Positions 22,819 to 32,759 of a stretch of DNA of 36,794 bases are shown here, one piece after another (within the stretch, counting starts at the first letter, position 1; each line of letters begins with the position of its first letter). The translations under genes and the position numbers were made by a program. The DNA comes from Planctomycetota bacterium (lineage in GTDB: Bacteria > Planctomycetota > Planctomycetia > JALXBF01), in NCBI GenBank assembly GCA_026991575.1, contig JALXBF010000170.1, forward strand, positions 1-36,794, given 5' to 3'. The notes under the pieces were generated by a model. It was not told the origin of the DNA, did not search any database, and was given only the letters and a program-made list of their open reading frames with translations.

Positions 22819-23859
22819 ATGAGAAGAAGTGTGCTCGTAGCGGTCATCGCCGGCGCTGTGCTGCCGGTGGTCGGCTGTGGCGGACCGCCGCTTCAGTTTC
22901 CGCTGCCCGATGCCGAGTTGTATGTCGGGCCGGACCAGGAGCCCCTGAAGCTGACCGCCGAACAGCGCCAGCAGATCTGGCGGATCCTGGATGCACAATT
23001 CGGGACTCCGGACCAGCCAAAGGTGCCCGACCCGATTAAGGAGATCCCGGGCTTTAAGACAGAACGGCTGGTGGAGGGTGGTCGGGCGTACCGCAAGCTC
23101 TGCATGCATTGTCACGGATTAGACGGCGATGGCGACGGTCCGACGGCCCCATTCCTGAATCCGCGGCCGCGCGACTATCGGCCCGGAGTCTTCAAGTTCA
23201 CCTCCACGGCGGTGGGAGCGAAACCGACCTGGGACGACCTTCATTACACGCTTGTGCGTGGTGCTCCGGGCACGGCCATGCCGTCGTTCCGTGCCTACCC
23301 GGAGGAAACGTTGGCTGCCCTGGTGGACTACGTGATTTACCTAAGCGTTCGTGGCCAGGTGGAGCGGTTGCTGGCCGCGACGCTTACCGAGTTCGATGAA
23401 CTGGCTGACGAGGACATCGAGGATGCGATCACCCTGGTGGCTGGCCAATGGAAGGCAGCTCCCGGGGCAGTCGTGCAACCCGATTCGGACAAGGCACCGT
23501 TTACAATGGAATCGGTGAAGCGGGGCCGTGAGTTGTTTCTCGCGTCTGACAAAGGTAACTGCGCTGCTTGTCACGGTGAGAGTGGCCGGGGTGATGGCCC
23601 CAGCGCCGAGGTGGATCCCAACACCGGGCAGCCGATGCGCGACTACTGGGGTTTCCGAATTCGTCCGACGGACTTGACGACTGGCCTGTTGCGCGGTGGT
23701 CGCCGGCCGATCGACATCTACCGTCGGATCCACACGGGCGTCAAGGGAACTCCGATGCCCGGCCAGGCGGGGAATCTTTCCTCGGACGAAATCTGGGACC
23801 TGGTCAACTTCGTGCTCTACCTGCCCTACCAGGGGGCTCAGGCGAGAGCGAGCGAATAG
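22819..23859 (+). CDS. dihaem cytochrome c lipoprotein
   Basis: 346 residues. The signal peptide ends at the lipobox LPVVG-Cys20. Two class I cytochrome c domains follow: CMHCH (95-99) with Met154 in GTAMPSF, and CAACH (248-252) with Met313 in GTPMPGQ. Helical segments LVDYVIYL and LVNFVLYLPY close the two domains. It starts at ATG 22819, with AGGAG 9 bases upstream. Its position just before coxB, and the lack of a cytochrome domain on CoxB, suggest that it donates electrons to the CuA site. The hairpin at 22740-22775 precedes it and that at 23871-23904 follows it. Confidence 0.92.
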   Translation: MRRSVLVAVIAGAVLPVVGCGGPPLQFPLPDAELYVGPDQEPLKLTAEQRQQIWRILDAQFGTPDQPKVPDPIKEIPGFKTERLVEGGRAYRKLCMHCHGLDGDGDGPTAPFLNPRPRDYRPGVFKFTSTAVGAKPTWDDLHYTLVRGAPGTAMPSFRAYPEETLAALVDYVIYLSVRGQVERLLAATLTEFDELADEDIEDAITLVAGQWKAAPGAVVQPDSDKAPFTMESVKRGRELFLASDKGNCAACHGESGRGDGPSAEVDPNTGQPMRDYWGFRIRPTDLTTGLLRGGRRPIDIYRRIHTGVKGTPMPGQAGNLSSDEIWDLVNFVLYLPYQGAQARASE

Positions 23860-23965: not shown

Positions 23966-24784
23966 GTGCGTATCGTATGGACCGTGCTGTTCGTGACCGT
24001 GCCGGTGCTGTCCATCGGCTTCTTCGTGGCAGCACCATTCATGAACTGGTGGTTGCCGGAGAATCTGTCCACGATTGCCGGCGACATCGACCGGATGTTC
24101 TACGTGATCCTGGCGATCACCGGCGCGATCTTCGCGCTGACGCAGGCAGTGCTGATCTATGCCCTGGTACGGTACAGCCGCGAGGACACTAAACCAGTTT
24201 ATTTCCACGAAAACAACAAACTGGAGATTGCTTGGTCGGTGGTACCGGCCGGAATCCTTGTGTTCCTGGCGTTCTACCAGCTGCCTACCTGGGGCAAGGC
24301 GAAGTACGTCACCCAGATAGAAGGCAAGGACGCCCGATTTGTGGCCATGGTGGTGGGCACGCAGTTTGACTGGCGCGTCCGCTACGTTGGCTTGGACGGC
24401 CAGCCGGGTAAGGCGGGCGTGGATGACGACGGCGATGGGGTGGTCGATAACTGGACGGAATTGGGCTTTCCCGACACCGATGACGTGGAGACAGTTGCGG
24501 AGCTGCGTTTGCCTGCCAATGAGCTGGTCATCATCCGGCTCACCAGCAACGACGTGCTGCACAGCTTTTTCGTGCCGCAGTTCCGCATCAAACAGGATGC
24601 TGTGCCGGGCATGATGATCCCGGTCTGGTTCCAGGCCACCAAGCCGGGCGAATACGAGCTCGTGTGCGCGGAGCTCTGCGGCTGGGGCCATTACCGGATG
24701 CGGGGTAAGCTGATCGTTCAGGAGCGCGACAAGTTCAACCGGTGGCTTGAACAGCTCAACGCAGAGGAAGAGGCGGTGCGATGA
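23966..24784 (+). CDS. coxB: cytochrome c oxidase subunit II, CuA-binding
   Basis: 272 residues. Two membrane helices (about 5-25 and 45-70, with a third hydrophobic stretch near 90-105) precede the CuA cupredoxin domain. Ligands are His199 (SNDVLHSFFVP) and Cys234, Cys238, His242, Met245 in CAELCGWGHYRM. No cytochrome c domain follows, so this is aa3- rather than caa3-like. An insertion at about 144-176 contains VDDDGDGVVDN, which looks like an EF-hand or dockerin-type calcium loop. It starts at GTG 23966 with AGAGGG upstream. The stop overlaps the coxA start. Confidence 0.95.
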   Translation: MRIVWTVLFVTVPVLSIGFFVAAPFMNWWLPENLSTIAGDIDRMFYVILAITGAIFALTQAVLIYALVRYSREDTKPVYFHENNKLEIAWSVVPAGILVFLAFYQLPTWGKAKYVTQIEGKDARFVAMVVGTQFDWRVRYVGLDGQPGKAGVDDDGDGVVDNWTELGFPDTDDVETVAELRLPANELVIIRLTSNDVLHSFFVPQFRIKQDAVPGMMIPVWFQATKPGEYELVCAELCGWGHYRMRGKLIVQERDKFNRWLEQLNAEEEAVR

Positions 24785-26562
24785 GTACGGCAAGCGTTTC
24801 GGTCGAGCGCCCGCATGCGCATACGCATGAGCTGAGCTTTATACGAGCATACGTGTTCTCCGAGGACCACAAGGTCATCGGATTACAGTTTTTCTTTTCA
24901 GGCCTCGTGTTCTTCTTGATCGGAGGCCTGCTGGCGCTGGCGATCCGCTGGCAGCTCGCATGGCCGTGGACTCAGGTGCCGATCCTGTCGCAGGCGTTCA
25001 GCCTGACGGCAGGCCAGATGCCACCTGAGTTCTACACCATGCTGTTCACCATGCACGGGACGATCATGATCTTCTTCGTGATCATCCCGATGCTGAACGC
25101 GGCCTTCGGCAACTATCTGTTGCCGCTCATGATCGGGGCGCGCGACATGGCGTTCCCCAAACTGAACATGATGTCGTACTGGGTGATGTTCCTGGCGTTT
25201 CCGGTGATCTTGGCCAGCTTCTTCGTGGAAGGCGGTGCAGCGGCAGCTGGCTGGACTGCCTACCCGCCGCTGGCCAGCATTAAGGAAGCCGCACCTGGTT
25301 CCGGCCCGGGCCAGACCCTCTGGCTCTTGGCGCTTATCCTGGTCGGAACATCTTCGATGATGGGTTCGGTGAACTACATCACCACGGTGATCAAGTGCCG
25401 GGTCAAAGGCATGCACATGCTCCGCATGCCGCTAACGGTCTGGGCGCTCTTCATCACCGCGATCTTGCAGGCCTTCGCGCTGCCCGTGCTCACAGCCGCC
25501 CTGTTCATGCAACTCCTCGAGCGGACCCTGGGCATGAACTTTTTCGTGCCGCCCGGGTTGTTGATCAACGGTCGCACGATCGCCGAAGCTGGCGGCCACC
25601 CGCTGCTGTGGCAGCACCTGTTCTGGTTTTACTCCCACCCGGCCGTCTACATCATGATCCTGCCTGCCATGGGCATGGTCTCGGATATCATGTCGTGTTT
25701 TGCCCGGAAGCCCATTTTCGGTTACAAGGCCATGGTGTACGCCATTGCCGGTATCGCCGGGCTGGGCTTCATCGTCTGGGCGCACCACATGTTCGTCAGC
25801 GGCATGAATCCCTACCTTGGGGTCGCCTTCATGACCGCGACCATGCTCATTGCGCTGCCGTCGGGCGTAAAAGTGTTCAACTGGCTGGCGACGCTGGTCG
25901 GAGGAAAGATTGAGTTCAGCGTGCCGATGCTGCACGCGCTGGCGTTCGTTTCGTTGTTCATCATCGGCGGCTTGAGTGGGCTGTACATGGCTGCCACGCC
26001 AGTGGATATGCATATCCACGATACGTACTTCATCGTGGCCCACTTCCACTATGTTCTGTTCGGCGGGAGCACTTTTGCGATTTTCGGCGCGATCACGTAC
26101 TGGTTCCCGAAGATGTTTGGCCGGAAGATGAACGAGACGCTGGGCAAGATCCACTTCGCCCTCACGTTCATCTTCTTCAACGGCACCTTCTTCGTAATGC
26201 ACCTGCTGGGCATCCACGGTCATCCCCGACGGATTGCCGACCCGACGTTGTACGAGTTCCTGCACGACGTGCAGAGCCTGAACGTTTTCTCAACCGTCTG
26301 TGCCCTGGCGCTCGGTGCGACTCAGATTCTGTTCGTGATCAACATGTTTTACAGTTTGTTCTTTGGTGAGCGGGCCGAGCAGAACCCATGGCGTGCAAAC
26401 ACGCTGGAATGGCAGGCACCTACGCCGCCGCCGCACGGGAACTTCCCGGAACCGATTGAGGTTCACCGTTGGCCGTACGACTACAGTAAGCCTGGGTGCC
26501 CTGAAGACTACGCGCCGCAGACGCAGCCTCTTGCGGCTGCTGAGGCGGCGACTGCGCATTAG
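24781..26562 (+). CDS. coxA: cytochrome c oxidase subunit I, A2-type haem-copper oxidase
   Basis: 593 residues with about 12 membrane helices. His92 (FTMHGTIM) and His423 bind the low-spin haem, His421 the high-spin haem (AHFHYVLFGG). His286, His335 and His336 bind CuB, with Tyr290 as the cross-linked tyrosine. The motif YSHPAVY (284-290) replaces the HPEVY of A1 enzymes. Tyr-Ser in place of the channel Glu defines subtype A2, as in Rhodothermus marinus. It reduces O2 to water and pumps protons. The ATG overlaps the coxB stop. The tail after residue 535 is Pro-rich and soluble. Confidence 0.96.
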   Translation: MSTASVSVERPHAHTHELSFIRAYVFSEDHKVIGLQFFFSGLVFFLIGGLLALAIRWQLAWPWTQVPILSQAFSLTAGQMPPEFYTMLFTMHGTIMIFFVIIPMLNAAFGNYLLPLMIGARDMAFPKLNMMSYWVMFLAFPVILASFFVEGGAAAAGWTAYPPLASIKEAAPGSGPGQTLWLLALILVGTSSMMGSVNYITTVIKCRVKGMHMLRMPLTVWALFITAILQAFALPVLTAALFMQLLERTLGMNFFVPPGLLINGRTIAEAGGHPLLWQHLFWFYSHPAVYIMILPAMGMVSDIMSCFARKPIFGYKAMVYAIAGIAGLGFIVWAHHMFVSGMNPYLGVAFMTATMLIALPSGVKVFNWLATLVGGKIEFSVPMLHALAFVSLFIIGGLSGLYMAATPVDMHIHDTYFIVAHFHYVLFGGSTFAIFGAITYWFPKMFGRKMNETLGKIHFALTFIFFNGTFFVMHLLGIHGHPRRIADPTLYEFLHDVQSLNVFSTVCALALGATQILFVINMFYSLFFGERAEQNPWRANTLEWQAPTPPPHGNFPEPIEVHRWPYDYSKPGCPEDYAPQTQPLAAAEAATAH

Positions 26563-26582: not shown

Positions 26583-27560
26583 ATGGTGACAGCGGGAGCG
26601 AACAACCGCAAGGTGTGGCTGCTGCACTGGCTTGCCGTCGTCGCGACCGCTGCCACCTTCCTGCTCCTAGCCGCAGGCGGTGCGGTCACGAGCCTCGACG
26701 TGGGCATGGCCGACACGGTCTGGCCGACTCCTCCCTGGTACCTGCTCGTGCTGCTGCGGTCGGGCCGAGCGTTGGAGCGGGGGATTGGTTTCTTGGTTGA
26801 GCATGCGCACCGGCAGGTCGGCTGGATCGTGGGCATGATCGTGGTGGTCATGGCCGCAGCAGCGTGGTCGCGTGGCGTGCCCCGCTGGCTCCGCTGGTGG
26901 AGCCTGGCGCTGTTGGTGACCGTTTCCGTCCAGGGCGTGCTCGGTGGGCTGCGTGTGCTGGACGTGTCGCGTGAGCTGGCAGTCGTACACGGTATTACGG
27001 CGCATCTGTTCTTCGCGGCCTGCCTGCTCACGGCGCTGCTAACGCGTCCGGGCCGTTTCGAGCGTCTCCTAGCGCTGGAGGCCGACACGGCGACGCTCTA
27101 CCAGCGGATGCGCACGGCGGTCATTGCATCCGGACTGCTTTTCTTCCAGCTCGTCAGCGGCGCGATCCTCCGCCACCTCGGCATCTGGCTCGGTGTCCAC
27201 GTGCTCGGTGCGGTAGCTGCTGCGCTGGCAACCATGGCGCTGGGCTTCGGCTGCTTCTTCATGGGGGACCGGCCACTGTTCTCGGCCCGGTCCTGGCTGC
27301 TGATGATCGGTGCGTTTGGCCAGGTGTTGCTGGGGGCAAGTGCGTGGGTGAGTGCGGACGGGTTCGGCCCGTACGCTCTCGGACCGATTACCCGGACGCA
27401 TGCCTACAGCGCGACGGCTCACATGCTGCTGGGCAGTGCGCTATGGGCGACCACCGTCACCGTACTTGCCGACCTGTACCTCTGCCTCCGCGGCCGGTGG
27501 GCCGCCTCCGGTAGCAAAGCACACGTGGGGCTGCCGGGGCCGGTGGGGAATTCGGCATGA
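26583..27560 (+). CDS. ctaA: haem A synthase, COX15/CtaA type
   Basis: 325 residues with eight hydrophobic helices in two similar halves, as in CtaA/COX15. The conserved EHAHRQVGWIVG (about 72-83) and VVHGITAHLFF give haem-binding His in the first half; GVHVLGAVAAA and THAYSATAHMLLG supply those in the second. It converts haem O to haem A for CoxA. It starts at ATG 26583 with GAGGCGGAG just upstream. The stop overlaps the ctaB start by four bases. Confidence 0.9.
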   Translation: MVTAGANNRKVWLLHWLAVVATAATFLLLAAGGAVTSLDVGMADTVWPTPPWYLLVLLRSGRALERGIGFLVEHAHRQVGWIVGMIVVVMAAAAWSRGVPRWLRWWSLALLVTVSVQGVLGGLRVLDVSRELAVVHGITAHLFFAACLLTALLTRPGRFERLLALEADTATLYQRMRTAVIASGLLFFQLVSGAILRHLGIWLGVHVLGAVAAALATMALGFGCFFMGDRPLFSARSWLLMIGAFGQVLLGASAWVSADGFGPYALGPITRTHAYSATAHMLLGSALWATTVTVLADLYLCLRGRWAASGSKAHVGLPGPVGNSA

Positions 27561-28507
27561 GCCTGGTGAGAACCGAAAATTCGGCATTGGAGTGGCGCTC
27601 CCGTACCCCCTGGGACGGGACCGTGGTTCTTGGACCGACCGCGGGACGGCGCAGACTGCTAGCTGCGGCCGCGGCCCGCTGCCAGCTGCTTAAGCCCCGA
27701 GTGCTGGCGCTGGTGCTCGTGGTGTGTGCCTTCAGCGGTCTGCTGGCTCGGCCGGCCGAACCGACCGGCCTTCTCATCACGACGCTAGCCACCGCTTGCG
27801 TCGCAGGCGCCGGTCTGATCATCAACCAGATCATGGAACGGGACGTGGACGCGGTCATGATCCGAACACGGAGCCGGCCGCTGCCCAGTGGTGCGGTGTC
27901 GGTGGCGGAGGCCTGGGGCTGGGCCGTGGTGCTGATGGCCGGCGGCGTCGGTTGCTTCCTGCTTTCCGGCCAGGTGCTGGCCCTGGTGCTAAGCCTCCTG
28001 TCTGCGTTCCTCTACATTGCCGTGTACACGCCGTTGAAGCGGATCACACCGCTGAATACGCTCGTCGGAGCGGTCTCCGGAGCGATGCCGCCACTGATCG
28101 GCTGGGCCGGGGCATGCGGCACGCTTGAGCCGATCGCCTGGCTACTGTTCGCAGTCCTGTTCTTCTGGCAGTTTCCGCACTTCTTTGCTATCGCGTGGCT
28201 GTGGCGCGAAGAGTATCGGCGTGCGGGGCTGCGCATGATCACCGTGGCTGATCCTGACGGCCGCAGCACCGGGCGCCAGGCGCTTGCCTATTGCCTGCCG
28301 CTGGTGCCTCTGTCGTTCTTGGCGGTGCCCGGTGGGCCGATGACTACTGGGTATCGCTTGCTCGCATTGCTGTTGGGACTTGCGTTTCTGGGCTGCACCG
28401 TGGAGTTTTGGTGGCGGCCGTCGGACCGCTCTGCGCGCCAGCTACTGCGTGCATCGGTGCTGTACCTGCCGGTACTGTTGCTGTTGATGTTGATGGCTAC
28501 GTACTGA
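27557..28507 (+). CDS. ctaB: protohaem IX farnesyltransferase (haem O synthase)
   Basis: 316 residues of the UbiA prenyltransferase superfamily with about nine membrane helices. The first metal/diphosphate site is [20 protein letters not shown] and the haem O synthase hallmarks [20 protein letters not shown] and [20 protein letters not shown] are present. It adds a farnesyl group to protohaem, the step before CtaA. The ATG at 27557 overlaps the ctaA stop (ATGA). The N-terminal 35 residues are hydrophilic and longer than usual. Confidence 0.95.
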
Positions 28508-28545
28508 AGCGACGAGCAAAACGAGACCTGTTGGGGGAAATGGCG

Positions 28546-29178
28546 ATGGCAGAAGCGGCGAGCGTAGGTCATGCTCATCAGGAGTACGAGGTCGGCTTGC
28601 CGTTGAGCAACGCCAAGCTGGCCATGTGGCTGTTCCTGGCCACGGAAATCATGTTTTTCGCCGCCTTGATCAGCGCCTACGTCGTGCTCCGCTGGGGTTT
28701 GCCTGCCTGGCCCGAGCCGGACACGGTGCTTAAGGCCTGGATCGGTGCGGTGAACACGATGATCCTGCTTGCTTCCAGTGCCACGATGGCCTTCTCGCTC
28801 TGGTCCGTCGAACGGGGCGACGCGGCCAAGCAACGGCTCTTCCTGGCACTCACCCTCCTGTTGGGCTTCGCCTTCCTGGGGGTCAAGGCCTACGAGTACA
28901 GCGAGAAATTTGCCCACGGCTATTACCCAGGGGGGCCGGGCTTGAGCGAGATTCCTTCGGGACCGACCTTCGTCTCCTGCTATTTCACGCTCACCGGGTT
29001 CCACGCCCTGCACGTGATCGCTGGCCTAGTCATGCTGGCGTGGCTGCTGATCTGGAGCCTGGTTCGTACCGAAGGGATCCCGAAGCAGCGGTATGAGCGT
29101 GTTGAGCTCGTCGGCCTTTACTGGCACTTTGTCGACGTGGTGTGGATCTTCCTGTTTCCGTTGTTGTACCTTATCTAG
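28546..29178 (+). CDS. coxC: cytochrome c oxidase subunit III
   Basis: 210 residues with five membrane helices, the short form of subunit III. Recognisable segments are [35 protein letters not shown] and [19 protein letters not shown]. The start is chosen at ATG 28546, because GGGGGA (28533-28538) is correctly spaced for it and too close to the in-frame ATG at 28540. It stabilises subunit I and its proton uptake. A small hairpin (ACCGA/TCGGT, 29205-29219) follows. Confidence 0.93.
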
Positions 29179-29238: not shown

Positions 29239-29607
29239 ATGAGTAACGAGCACAGTGGCAACCACTTTAACGCATACCTGTACGTGGCCATTGCTCTGTT
29301 GATCCTGACCGTGGTCACATACTTCGTGGCCGAGAGTTTCGAGACGACGTTCCAACGGGCAGTCTCTGGCCTGTTGATCGCTGTGGCCAAGGCCATGTTG
29401 GTCGTCTCGATCTTCATGCACCTGAAGTGGGACTGGAAAAAGAAGACCTGGTTCATGATTGTCCCGGCATTGCTGCTCTCTGCGGTGCTGCTGGTGGGAC
29501 TGTTCCCGGACATTGCCAAGCGGGAGATTACGACCTCACCGTACAGCACCGCCGTTGCTGCCGAGGGCAGCACGGGCACAAGCCACGCCGGTGGCGCCAG
29601 CCATTGA
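29239..29607 (+). CDS. coxD: cytochrome c oxidase subunit IV, prokaryotic type
   Basis: 122 residues with three membrane helices, of the COX4_pro family that accompanies A-type oxidases. The family pattern is visible in LLIAVAKAMLVVSIFMHLKW followed by a third helix, FMIVPALLLSAVLLVGLFPDI. The C-terminal tail is Ser/Thr/His-rich. It starts at ATG 29239, with AGAGGT about 9 bases upstream. The end overlaps the ABC ATPase start by 17 bp. Confidence 0.85.
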   Translation: MSNEHSGNHFNAYLYVAIALLILTVVTYFVAESFETTFQRAVSGLLIAVAKAMLVVSIFMHLKWDWKKKTWFMIVPALLLSAVLLVGLFPDIAKREITTSPYSTAVAAEGSTGTSHAGGASH

Positions 29608-30520
29608 ACTACACAATCTGGTGTGTCGGTATGGTGACCGGGTCGCGGTCGCAGGCATCAGCCTGGCCGTCGAGCCCGGTTCCATTTTCGGGGTACTCGG
29701 CCCCAACGGCGGCGGAAAGTCGACGACGTTTCGAGTGCTGGCGACTTTGAGGCCGCCGCAGGAGGGCAGCGCCCGAGTGGCGGGCTATGACGTGGTCCAA
29801 GACGCTGGGCAGGTGCGGCGGCGCATTGGGGTCGTTTTCCAGGAGGCCGCTTTGGATGATAAGCTCACCGTGCGTGAAAACCTTACCCATCACGGGCATC
29901 TCTACGGCCTCCGAGGTTCTGAGTTGCGGGCGCGCATCGAGCGGGTCCTGGAGAACGTCGCGCTCCTGGACCGAGCGGACGAGCTGGTCGAGAAACTTTC
30001 CGGAGGACTGAAACGACGCGCCGAGATTGCCAAGGTGTTGTTACACGAGCCTGAGGTCCTGCTGCTGGATGAGCCGACCACAGGGCTGGACCCGGGGGCT
30101 CGTGCCGCACTGTGGCAGCAACTTCGCCGACTCCGAGACGAACACGGCTGCACGGTGCTGATGGCCACCCACCTGTTCGAGGATGCCGAACAGTGCGACC
30201 AGATTGCCATTCTCGACCGAGGCAAGCTGGTCGGGCTTGGCACACCACAGCAATTGAAGCGACTCGTCGGGGGAGAGGTCCTGACCCTTGAGTGCGACGA
30301 TGCCGAGGGAGTGGTACGTGAGCTGCCCCGGATCGTGCCCGGAGCTGAACCGATGCGCGTGGGTGAGCAGATTCGGCTTGAGCATCCGGAAGCCCACCGG
30401 CTGGTGCCCCAGCTTGTCGAAGTTTTCGGCGAGCGGATCCGCGCGATCCGACTGGGGCAGCCAACGCTGGCCGATGTGTTCTTCAAGTTAGCGGGTCATG
30501 AGTTCGACGGTGTCGGTTGA
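29591..30520 (+). CDS. ABC transporter ATP-binding protein, ABC-2/DrrA-like
   Basis: 309 residues. Walker A GPNGGGKST, Q-loop FQEAALDD, signature LSGGLKRR, Walker B LLLDEPTTGLDP and the switch His in ATHLFED are all present. The C-terminal part after about residue 215 is the small domain of exporter ATPases that pair with ABC-2 permeases. GTG 29591 is the likely start, inside the coxD end. The frame is open further upstream but there it only reads coxD out of frame. With the permease it would form an exporter in the oxidase operon; cargo unknown, possibly haem, copper or an assembly factor. Confidence 0.92.
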   Translation: MAPAIELHNLVCRYGDRVAVAGISLAVEPGSIFGVLGPNGGGKSTTFRVLATLRPPQEGSARVAGYDVVQDAGQVRRRIGVVFQEAALDDKLTVRENLTHHGHLYGLRGSELRARIERVLENVALLDRADELVEKLSGGLKRRAEIAKVLLHEPEVLLLDEPTTGLDPGARAALWQQLRRLRDEHGCTVLMATHLFEDAEQCDQIAILDRGKLVGLGTPQQLKRLVGGEVLTLECDDAEGVVRELPRIVPGAEPMRVGEQIRLEHPEAHRLVPQLVEVFGERIRAIRLGQPTLADVFFKLAGHEFDGVG

Positions 30521-30540
30521 GCCGAGCGGAGCGATCGAGC

Positions 30541-31308
30541 GTGCAGGACGTACTGGTGGTCACAATCAGCCTGGCACGCCGCGAAGTGGTCCGCTTTTTG
30601 CGACAACGATCGCGGGTGATTGGCGGACTGCTGACGCCAGTCGTTTTCTGGTTGCTGCTCGGCTTCGGTATCGGCCGTTCGTTCCGGCCGCCGGGATGGG
30701 GTAACGACGTGGACTTTGCGGAATACTTCTTCCCGGGCACGCTCCTGCTGATCCTGCTGTTCACGGCGATTTTCTCGACGGTCTCCGTGATCGAAGATCG
30801 CCGGGCGGGCTTCCTGCAGGGCGTTCTGGTGTCACCTGCACCATTGCTAGCAGTGGTGCTTAGCAAAGTGCTGGGCGGGGCAGTGCTTGCACTGCTTCAC
30901 GGCGCGCTGTTCCTTTTGCTTGCCCCTGTGGCCGGCCTGGCAATTCCGGCGCAGGCGTTCGGCGCACTGGTCGCGTTCATGGTGCTGGACAGCCTGACGC
31001 TGACGGCCCTTGGGCTCGCGGTCGCCTGGCCCATGGAGTCAACGCAAGGGTTTCACGCCGTCATGAACCTCGTGCTTATCCCGCTATGGCTTTTGTCCGG
31101 AGCGCTGTTTCCGATGGAGGGGGCAGCCGCTTGGGTCCGCGTGCTCATGCGGCTTAATCCCGTGCACTATGCGTACGCAGGCTTACAGGCGGCGCTGTTA
31201 CCGGCAGCTCCTAGAATTCCAGTGAGCATTGCGGCCGGCGTGAACCTCGCCTTCCTGCTCCTGTTGATCGGGTGGGTGGTTCTGGTTGCTGGCCGAGCGA
31301 GGAATTGA
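30541..31308 (+). CDS. ABC-2 type transporter permease
   Basis: 255 residues with six membrane helices of the ABC-2 (DrrB/NodJ) type: RREVVRFLRQRSRVIGG in the first amphipathic helix, VIEDRRAGFLQGVLVSPAP, and the characteristic MNLVLIPLWLLSGALFPMEG, then LNPVHYAYAGLQ. It starts at GTG 30541, with GCGGAG about 9 bases upstream. A TTG at 30517, overlapping the ATPase stop, is an alternative. It forms the membrane half of the exporter with the preceding ATPase. Confidence 0.9.
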   Translation: MQDVLVVTISLARREVVRFLRQRSRVIGGLLTPVVFWLLLGFGIGRSFRPPGWGNDVDFAEYFFPGTLLLILLFTAIFSTVSVIEDRRAGFLQGVLVSPAPLLAVVLSKVLGGAVLALLHGALFLLLAPVAGLAIPAQAFGALVAFMVLDSLTLTALGLAVAWPMESTQGFHAVMNLVLIPLWLLSGALFPMEGAAAWVRVLMRLNPVHYAYAGLQAALLPAAPRIPVSIAAGVNLAFLLLLIGWVVLVAGRARN

Positions 31309-31311
31309 GCG

Positions 31312-32004
31312 ATGTCGCAGTCGGTTGATGCGTCCCGTGCGAGCATGATGCGCTCGCTGGGCACGTACCTGGTGGTGCTGATGTTAGCCGGGGGTGGCTT
31401 GATCGCCGGCGGGGCGTTCCTTGGTCGCTTGCATGCATCGAACACGGCTTATCGGGAGGCGGTCCAGATGGTGCGGCAGCTGGCGCTGCCGCTGCCCTCG
31501 GTTGAGCTGGTGGATCACCACGGCAGGCCCTGGCGGCCGGAGATGCTCCGCGGGCAGGTCTGGGTGGCTGCCTGCTTCTTCACACGCTGCTCGACAGTCT
31601 GCCCCGCGCTGATGCACTCGCTGCAGAGTTTGGCCGAGGAGCTGAAAGGCCTGCAAGGGGTGCGCTTCCTGATCGTGACCGTTGATCCGACCCATGATCG
31701 ACCGGCGGTGCTGCGTGACTACGCCCGAGCGATCAAGGCGGATCAGCGGTGGCTGTTCGTCACAGGCGAAAAGGAGGCCGTGTATCGGTTGGTACGTGAG
31801 GGCTTTCGGCTGTCGGCTGCGGAAACTCCCCCCGAGGCACGCCGCCAGGGGGCTGATCCCGTGACACACAGCACCAGACTGGTACTCATTGGCAAACAGG
31901 CCCGCGTACGTGGCTACGCGGAGACGCGCGATCCGTGGCAGCTGACCAAGCTCCAACACGCGATCGACCTGTTACTGGCCGAACCCGAAGACGATGTCCG
32001 CTGA
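31312..32004 (+). CDS. SCO1/SenC copper-delivery protein
   Basis: 230 residues. One membrane anchor (about 17-40) is followed by a thioredoxin fold. Copper ligands are Cys93 and Cys97 in FTRCSTVCPAL and His186 in THSTRLVLI. FLIVTVDPTHDRPAVLRDYA is the usual SCO segment. It delivers copper to, or reduces, the CuA site of CoxB. The ATG at 31312 is 3 bases after the permease stop. The gene end overlaps the DUF420 start. Confidence 0.93.
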   Translation: MSQSVDASRASMMRSLGTYLVVLMLAGGGLIAGGAFLGRLHASNTAYREAVQMVRQLALPLPSVELVDHHGRPWRPEMLRGQVWVAACFFTRCSTVCPALMHSLQSLAEELKGLQGVRFLIVTVDPTHDRPAVLRDYARAIKADQRWLFVTGEKEAVYRLVREGFRLSAAETPPEARRQGADPVTHSTRLVLIGKQARVRGYAETRDPWQLTKLQHAIDLLLAEPEDDVR

Positions 32005-32419
32005 AGGTCCGCCACTGCTTGCAACCATAGACGCGGCGCTCAACCTGACAGCCGCGGTGCTGATGACGGCCGGATATGCGGCCGTGCGCGCCGGTCGGAT
32101 CCTTCTGCATCGGCGGCTGATGCTCGCCGCAGTGGCGGTTTCGGCCTTGTTCCTGGTCTGTTACCTCTATTACCACGCCACCCACGAGCCAGTGCGGTAT
32201 CAGGGCAGCGGCTGGGCCCGTCTGCTCTATCTGCTGCTGCTCGGCAGCCACACGGTCCTCGCAGCAGCGACCGTACCGCTGGTGTTGACCAGCGTCTGGT
32301 TAGGGTTGCGTGACCGGATCGACCGACACCGGCAGCTTGTTCGCTATGCGCTGCCAATCTGGTGGTACGTCTCCGTTAGCGGAGTGGTTGTCTACATCGT
32401 GCTGTACCATCTGGGCTAG
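31994..32419 (+). CDS. DUF420 membrane protein, probable oxidase assembly factor (CtaM/YozB-like)
   Basis: 141 residues with four membrane helices. LYYHATHE, LLGSHTVLAA and the C-terminal VLYHLG carry the conserved His residues of the DUF420 family; IDRHRQLVRYALPIWWYVSVSG is typical too. In Gram-positive bacteria members (YozB, CtaM) are needed to assemble haem-copper oxidases. The ATG at 31994 overlaps the SCO1 stop by 11 bases. Confidence 0.82.
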   Translation: MSAEGPPLLATIDAALNLTAAVLMTAGYAAVRAGRILLHRRLMLAAVAVSALFLVCYLYYHATHEPVRYQGSGWARLLYLLLLGSHTVLAAATVPLVLTSVWLGLRDRIDRHRQLVRYALPIWWYVSVSGVVVYIVLYHLG

Positions 32420-32453
32420 TCCAGCGGTGGTGACCGGCAGAGGAGTCCTGGGC

Positions 32454-32759
32454 ATGAAGTGGTCAAACTGGCTTGCACGAACGGCTCTGGTGACGATGGG
32501 GCTGCTGTTGCTCCATGCGTCGTTGGTCTATGGCCAATGCGCGATGTGAAAGCAGACAGTGTCGGCCTCCGGTTCGGAGGACGCCGTCCGCTTTGCCAGC
32601 GCTCTGAACGCCGGTATCCTGCTTCTTCTCGGAGCCCCCTACCTGGTGCTTGGCGGCCTGGGCCTGATCTTCTACCGCGCCGTGCGCAAGGCACGCCGCC
32701 AGCAGCAAGAGGCCGCACTGAGCGAATCGAATGACACCGACCCGGTCGCGAATCGGTGA
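32454..32759 (+). CDS. small membrane-anchored protein with CxxU motif: candidate selenoprotein (in-frame TGA at 32547-32549)
   Basis: Read through the TGA, the gene encodes 101 residues. A signal peptide (1-27, ending LVYG) precedes Gln28-Cys29-Ala30-Met31-[TGA 32]-Lys33. Then comes a hydrophilic stretch, a membrane helix (about 54-73, ALNAGILLLLGAPYLVLGGL) and a basic, cytoplasmic-looking tail (RAVRKARRQQQ). AGAGGAG stands 8 bases before the ATG, so translation starts upstream of the TGA, and the frame after it is clearly protein-like. A Cys at position 32 would make a CxxC redox pair. TGA there, with the hairpin at 32566-32580, points to selenocysteine. Its place after SCO1 and DUF420 suggests a role in reducing or metallating the oxidase. 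A nonsense mutation of a Cys codon (TGC or TGT to TGA) is the alternative. Confidence 0.65.
32566..32580 (+). promoter_or_regulatory. candidate bacterial SECIS hairpin
   Basis: CCTCCG (32566-32571) and CGGAGG (32575-32580) form a 6-bp stem with a GTT loop, or a 5-bp stem with loop GGTTC. The loop begins about 22 bases after the TGA at 32547-32549, inside the usual distance of a bacterial SECIS, and carries the G expected for SelB binding. A bulged A at 32581 could allow a short lower stem. It lies within the coding frame, as bacterial SECIS elements do. Confidence 0.5.

Follow-up and report, generated by a model that had tools for sequence, protein, structure and literature searches.

The gene at the end of an oxidase cluster

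The window, a stretch of 36,794 nucleotides from a planctomycete genome of 4.96 Mb that is 97.8% complete, carries on its forward strand an oxidase gene cluster whose last member is the subject of this study. The cluster opens with a cytochrome c protein (22819..23859, PF00034), followed by cytochrome oxidase (COX) subunit II with its CuA motif CAELCGWGHYRM intact (23966..24784, PF00116), COX subunit I (24781..26562, PF00115), heme A synthase CtaA (26583..27560, PF02628), heme O synthase CtaB (27557..28507, PF01040), a frame holding COX subunit III (28291..29178), an ABC ATPase (29459..30520, PF00005), an ABC-2 membrane subunit (30517..31308, PF01061), a SCO1/SenC copper protein with the motif CSTVC (31312..32004, PF02630, E 5.5e-24) and DUF420/CtaM (31994..32419, PF04238, E 7.4e-38). 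The identity of subunit III comes from gene order, without a Pfam scan; used as a query, the frame matches those that occupy the subunit III position in related operons. The ABC ATPase and permease pair (29459-31308) stands between COX3 and SCO1, a placement kept in many related clusters, and may possibly serve in heme or copper handling.

The last gene (32454..32759, forward strand) is preceded by a ribosome binding site, GAGGAG (32440..32445), 8 nt ahead of its ATG at 32454. The start codon is followed by MKWSNWLARTALVTMGLLLLHASLVYGQCAM and, after 31 codons in all, by an in-frame TGA (32547-32549), with 69 further codons between this TGA and the terminal TGA at 32757-32759. Translated with TGA as selenocysteine (Sec), and placed by family alignment and HMM, the frame yields a product of 101 residues, MKWSNWLARTALVTMGLLLLHASLVYG-QCAMU-KQTVSASGSEDAVRFASALNAGILLLLGAPYLVLGGLGLIFYRAVRKARR..., in which Sec is residue 32 and closes a C-A-M-U redox motif (32538..32549).

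An N-terminal hydrophobic segment, either a signal peptide or a first membrane helix, occupies residues 1-27 (32454..32534), with its hydropathy peak at residues 7-25 and a model helix, of moderate confidence, at 3-39. Behind the motif, hydropathy marks a transmembrane helix at residues 55-73 (32616..32672; model helix 42-94), and a basic tail, RAVRKARR (32676..32699), is expected on the cytoplasmic side. The structure model, built from four sequences only, shows two helices and nothing more (pLDDT 75, pTM 0.34; moderate confidence). The membrane topology, including the outward-facing position of the motif, is inferred from hydropathy and this two-helix model.

An earlier, sequence-only reading of the locus had described a 31-codon frame with a good ribosome site, a TGA after QCAM and 69 further codons, and this held exactly. 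Its claims that the TGA completes a Cys-x-x-[TGA] motif at the place of the second Cys and that a membrane helix and a basic tail follow also held, with the helix at residues 55-73 and the tail as given above. That the gene follows SCO1 and DUF420 is borne out by the Pfam matches of both neighbors.

Conservation and selenocysteine insertion signals

Relatives were sought in 392 genomes of the phylum. A contig scan with one protein found only three, while a search of the genomes with a single protein gave a match in 53 and a 36-row profile gave a match in 121. All in-frame stops listed inside the profile matches of these 121 genomes are TGA, with no TAA and no TAG. Among fetched loci, both motif positions could be read clearly in 91 members, of which 43 are CxxC, 33 UxxC and 15 CxxU. 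In each of the 48 TGA members, the window included, TGA replaces exactly one motif Cys and always falls in a Cys column. Only the two Cys columns are invariant in the 36-row alignment of the main family, and Met is frequent between them (CAM[CU], CSM[CU], CPM[CU]). The occurrence of Sec at either position, with Cys in other members, is hard to account for other than by selection acting on a pair that is redox-active or binds metal. The family extends to Bacteroidota, with matches in 92 of 296 genomes; the members read there all carry QC(A/P)MC(K/R) without an internal TGA, and most adjoin SCO1 and DUF420.

Purifying selection acts on the codons behind the TGA in 10 of the 11 TGA-form pairs tested, with dN/dS of 0.02-0.31 in nine pairs and 0 in one near-identical pair. 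The two members of the remaining pair (L061/L062; dN/dS 0.89 on 7 changes) differ too little for purifying selection to show. In GC-rich DNA, chance alone could produce a read-through of 69 codons, and chance read-through or a pseudogene was considered as a reading; it is ruled out by the family-wide placement of TGA, the absence of TAA and TAG, and the purifying selection downstream.

A gene tree of about 80 columns requires at least 11 changes between Sec and Cys and puts the window gene beside the Bacteroidota Cys forms (support 91). The tree is poorly resolved, and since few of its branches are well supported, the number of independent Sec gains remains uncertain.

A SECIS-type hairpin, CCTCC-GGTTC-GGAGG (32566..32580), lies behind the window TGA; its loop begins 21 nt after the UGA and a wider minimum-energy stem spans approximately 32550-32593. 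Taken as a whole, the fold downstream of the window TGA is not exceptionally stable (p 0.16), and because global fold stability is a weak measure for the window alone, it was replaced by tests of the GGU hairpin and of covariation. Against synonymous recodings, the window hairpin alone reaches p = 0.036. UxxC genes have hairpins such as GGAGGC-GGTC-GCCTCC, with a loop beginning 17 nt after the UGA. Those of CxxU genes are differently encoded (CCTCC-GGTNC-GGAGG, TACGATC-AGGTG-GATCGTG), and their loops begin 18-21 nt after the UGA. In the SECIS element of Escherichia coli fdhF, GGUC likewise lies in the apical loop, at roughly this distance.

We scored a hairpin as present when a GGU apical loop sat on a stem of five pairs or more, a rule defined after viewing the first set of loci. 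In that set, 18 of 19 Sec genes met it as against 0 of 30 Cys genes (p 1.6e-12), with approximately 1.5 expected from synonymous recoding of the Sec genes. Loci fetched later provide the fair test, since the rule had been set on the first; fewer of them meet the strict form, but the difference persists (13/29 Sec vs 0/15 Cys, p 0.0015), and over all fetched loci the counts are 31/48 and 0/45. In UxxC genes, 86.9% of stem cells pair and five of the six pairs change on both sides in a compensatory manner, with a covariation score of 0.367 compared to 0.131 in shuffles (0/500) and at most 0.139 when the stem is slid; the same columns pair in 23-63% of Cys genes. Some changes alter the protein while pairing is kept, as in KEAVAS (GGAGGC/GCCTCC) versus RDVVTS (GGACGT/ACGTCC).

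The genome holding the window is equipped to decode UGA as Sec. Contig C184 carries tRNA-Sec (73 bits), SelB (383 bits) and SelA (484 bits) in one run, preceded by SelD, such that selD-selB-selA-tRNA-Sec form one cluster. The SelD gene (L050:7050) itself reads SCAG-TGA-AGK, with the TGA at the known Sec site of SelD and a hairpin with a GGU loop (CCGCACA-GGU-UGUGCGG) behind it. UGA decoding is therefore in use in this genome, in an independent and classical case. Across genomes, 45 of 48 with a Sec form have SelA, against 24 of 57 with a Cys form (Fisher p 9e-9, relatedness uncorrected), where a genome with an unfetched locus was taken as Cys if no stop lay inside the match. The three Sec-form genomes without SelA are 67%, 77% and 79% complete.

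Two further readings of the TGA may be weighed against these data. Reassignment of TGA to Trp or Gly in the window genome is all but excluded, and no evidence in support of it was found. TGA ends neighboring genes (SCO1 at 32004 and the ABC gene at 31308), on which ground we reject it; the selenocysteine machinery is complete, and the column in relatives holds Cys, not Trp or Gly. The other reading is that the TGA is a true stop, whether from a nonsense mutation, a sequencing error or a short peptide that ends in QCAM. In its favor, the base call in the window lacks raw-read confirmation and the order to which the window belongs is represented by one genome only in the collection. Against it stand the 48 genomes in which TGA is confined to the two Cys columns and TAA and TAG are absent, the hairpins with compensatory changes, the selection downstream of the TGA and the co-occurrence with SelA. 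We consider a true stop very unlikely in the window, and refuted for the family.

The insertion signals and the conservation are thus shown by sequence evidence. The selenoprotein interpretation of the sequence-only reading is supported by the Sec machinery, by Cys and TGA homologues and by the SECIS-type hairpin. A search for selA, selB, selC and selD, which it had suggested, found all four, clustered, in favor of this interpretation; likewise, homologues carry Cys or TGA at exactly position 32, where it had proposed to look. It missed the use of UxxC by other members of the family and the existence of a sister family with tandem TGA.

The sister family comprises small membrane proteins encoded directly behind COX3, several of them in a second COX operon (L181-L191 and L199; e.g. 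L184, L186 and L188). Their motifs have either two adjacent in-frame TGA codons (SGUUP, QAUUP) or CysSec (SCUP), followed by GDDP...RL.GGI and then one helix. A strong hairpin such as CGCCUGGUAGGCG lies behind the TGA codons, and no NCBIfam model matches the sister family. A tandem Sec-Sec motif would be unusual, if true.

A probable role in oxidase maturation

Linkage of the family to oxidase genes is shown by sequence evidence. COX, heme A, SCO1 or DUF420 genes adjoin 38 of the 48 Sec genes. Around the other ten (L055, L068, L067, L153-L155, L157-L160), the stretch that was fetched contains no oxidase gene; DUF420 lies elsewhere in the genome for nine of these ten, and the neighbors of two unlinked members, L068 and L157, show no common theme. 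At the genome level, DUF420/CtaM is found in 102 of 106 genomes whose match to the family is strong (E no higher than 1e-8) and in 71 of 286 others (p 4e-41, relatedness uncorrected). The link to oxidase assembly claimed earlier is supported by conserved gene order together with this co-occurrence. The 71 genomes with DUF420/CtaM and no strong match to the small protein include G102, G084 and G045.

It is very likely, as one joint claim, that the gene encodes a genuine selenoprotein and that this protein works in oxidase maturation; there are no peptide or selenium labelling data. Its partner proteins and its chemistry are inferred. Several published observations bear on what they might be. 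CuA cysteines must be thiols to accept copper, and in Bradyrhizobium TlpA keeps the CuA and Sco cysteines reduced; TlpA is absent from many bacteria (PMC9145763). Heme-A oxidases depend on CtaM, for which a role in exporting copper towards Sco has been suggested (PMC13344008, PMC9145763), and the literature also discusses a cupric reductase dedicated to oxidase biogenesis (PMC13344008).

We propose a model where UGA would be decoded by SelB and tRNA-Sec, aided by the hairpin just downstream, to give a small membrane protein with an outward-facing Cys-x-x-Sec between the N-terminal hydrophobic segment and the membrane helix with its basic cytoplasmic tail. The selenoprotein would act with CtaM (DUF420) and Sco in the maturation of an aa3-type oxidase. 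At the outer face, its thiol/selenol may reduce Sco cysteines, CuA cysteines or Cu(II), thereby enabling copper loading. A reductant of this kind had been put forward in the sequence-only reading; the role in oxidase assembly is supported, whereas the biochemistry is still inference. Taken alone, the reductant mechanism is slightly less likely to be right than wrong. Its re-reduction route is unexplained, as there is no thioredoxin fold or other recognized domain, and this counts against it.

Alternatively, the protein may be an oxidase-assembly selenoprotein in which the Cys/Sec pair is a copper(I) ligand, relaying copper from CtaM to Sco or to subunit II, and not primarily a reductant. The position of the gene directly behind SCO1 and CtaM, the proposed role of CtaM as a copper exporter (PMC13344008), the Met often found inside the motif and the absence of a redox fold all speak for a relay. 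Against it, finding Sec in place of either Cys is usual in redox pairs, and selenolate metal sites, although known, are less common. We lean against the relay. A membrane-anchored CxxC/CxxU near Sco and CtaM fits both readings, and no sequence test in this analysis separates them. The reductant is preferred since Sec replaces either Cys of the pair, as is typical of redox pairs.

Under the preferred reading of an oxidase-assembly selenoprotein, a missing assembly factor would stand beside Sco and CtaM, conserved across two phyla as a Cys protein. Its Sec forms are easily missed, because gene callers that read UGA as a stop cut them after about 20-50 codons. It also becomes possible to test directly which agent reduces copper or the CuA cysteines in bacteria without TlpA. 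It is tempting to go further, and as a single joint claim we give modest preference to a bolder reading, that this undescribed family forms a dedicated step in the maturation of heme-copper oxidases, both in the phylum of the window and in Bacteroidota, that selenium was recruited several times independently at either Cys, and that the sister family encoded behind COX3 carries a pair of adjacent UGA codons. If so, selenium supply would directly affect aerobic respiration in these bacteria.

Comparison with known proteins

No Pfam or NCBIfam family is common to the members, and a PDB search with the window family returned nothing. Weak Pfam matches to DUF5472, Saf_2TM, CcmH and DUF898 were set aside, being under the cut-off and absent from relatives. 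A 2026 inventory of 119 prokaryotic selenoprotein families (PMC13188914) has no corresponding entry in its table, and the new families of deep-Sep (PMC12013277) have other names and organisms; three deep-Sep hypothetical proteins have NCBIfam models in that inventory, and the window protein matches none of them. Nothing relevant to selenoproteins together with Sco was found in the open-access literature searched, which excluded the supplementary table of PMC4807772 (two planctomycetes) and the GOS_A alignment of PMC2398784. Nor did that literature contradict the earlier statement that no selenoprotein is known in oxidase assembly. The family thus appears to be undescribed and, as far as could be found there, the first selenoprotein tied to cytochrome c oxidase assembly.

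The closest likeness in motif is to the bacterial CxxU/UxxC thiol-oxidoreductase selenoproteins (SelW-like, AhpD-like, DsbA-like and thioredoxin), which share Sec two residues from Cys, Cys homologues and a SECIS hairpin behind the UGA. These proteins have thioredoxin-like or AhpD-like folds, whereas the window family is a small membrane protein of no recognized fold, and it differs from them in using both motif positions for Sec. MerT and MerE, metal transport proteins, are likewise short membrane proteins with a Cys pair, and MerT has a predicted C/SxxU selenoprotein form (PMC13188914), but their gene context is different and a weak MerE match was seen in only 1 of 36 members (E 0.006).

In its proposed role, as an extracytoplasmic thiol for apo-CuA and Sco, the window protein resembles TlpA (PMC9145763). 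TlpA has a thioredoxin fold, however, and no sequence relation to the window protein was found, nor any thioredoxin domain match in the window family. CtaM/DUF420 and Sco are its companions in gene neighborhood, co-occurrence and oxidase assembly, but are different proteins, CtaM with 4-5 helices and Sco with a thioredoxin fold.
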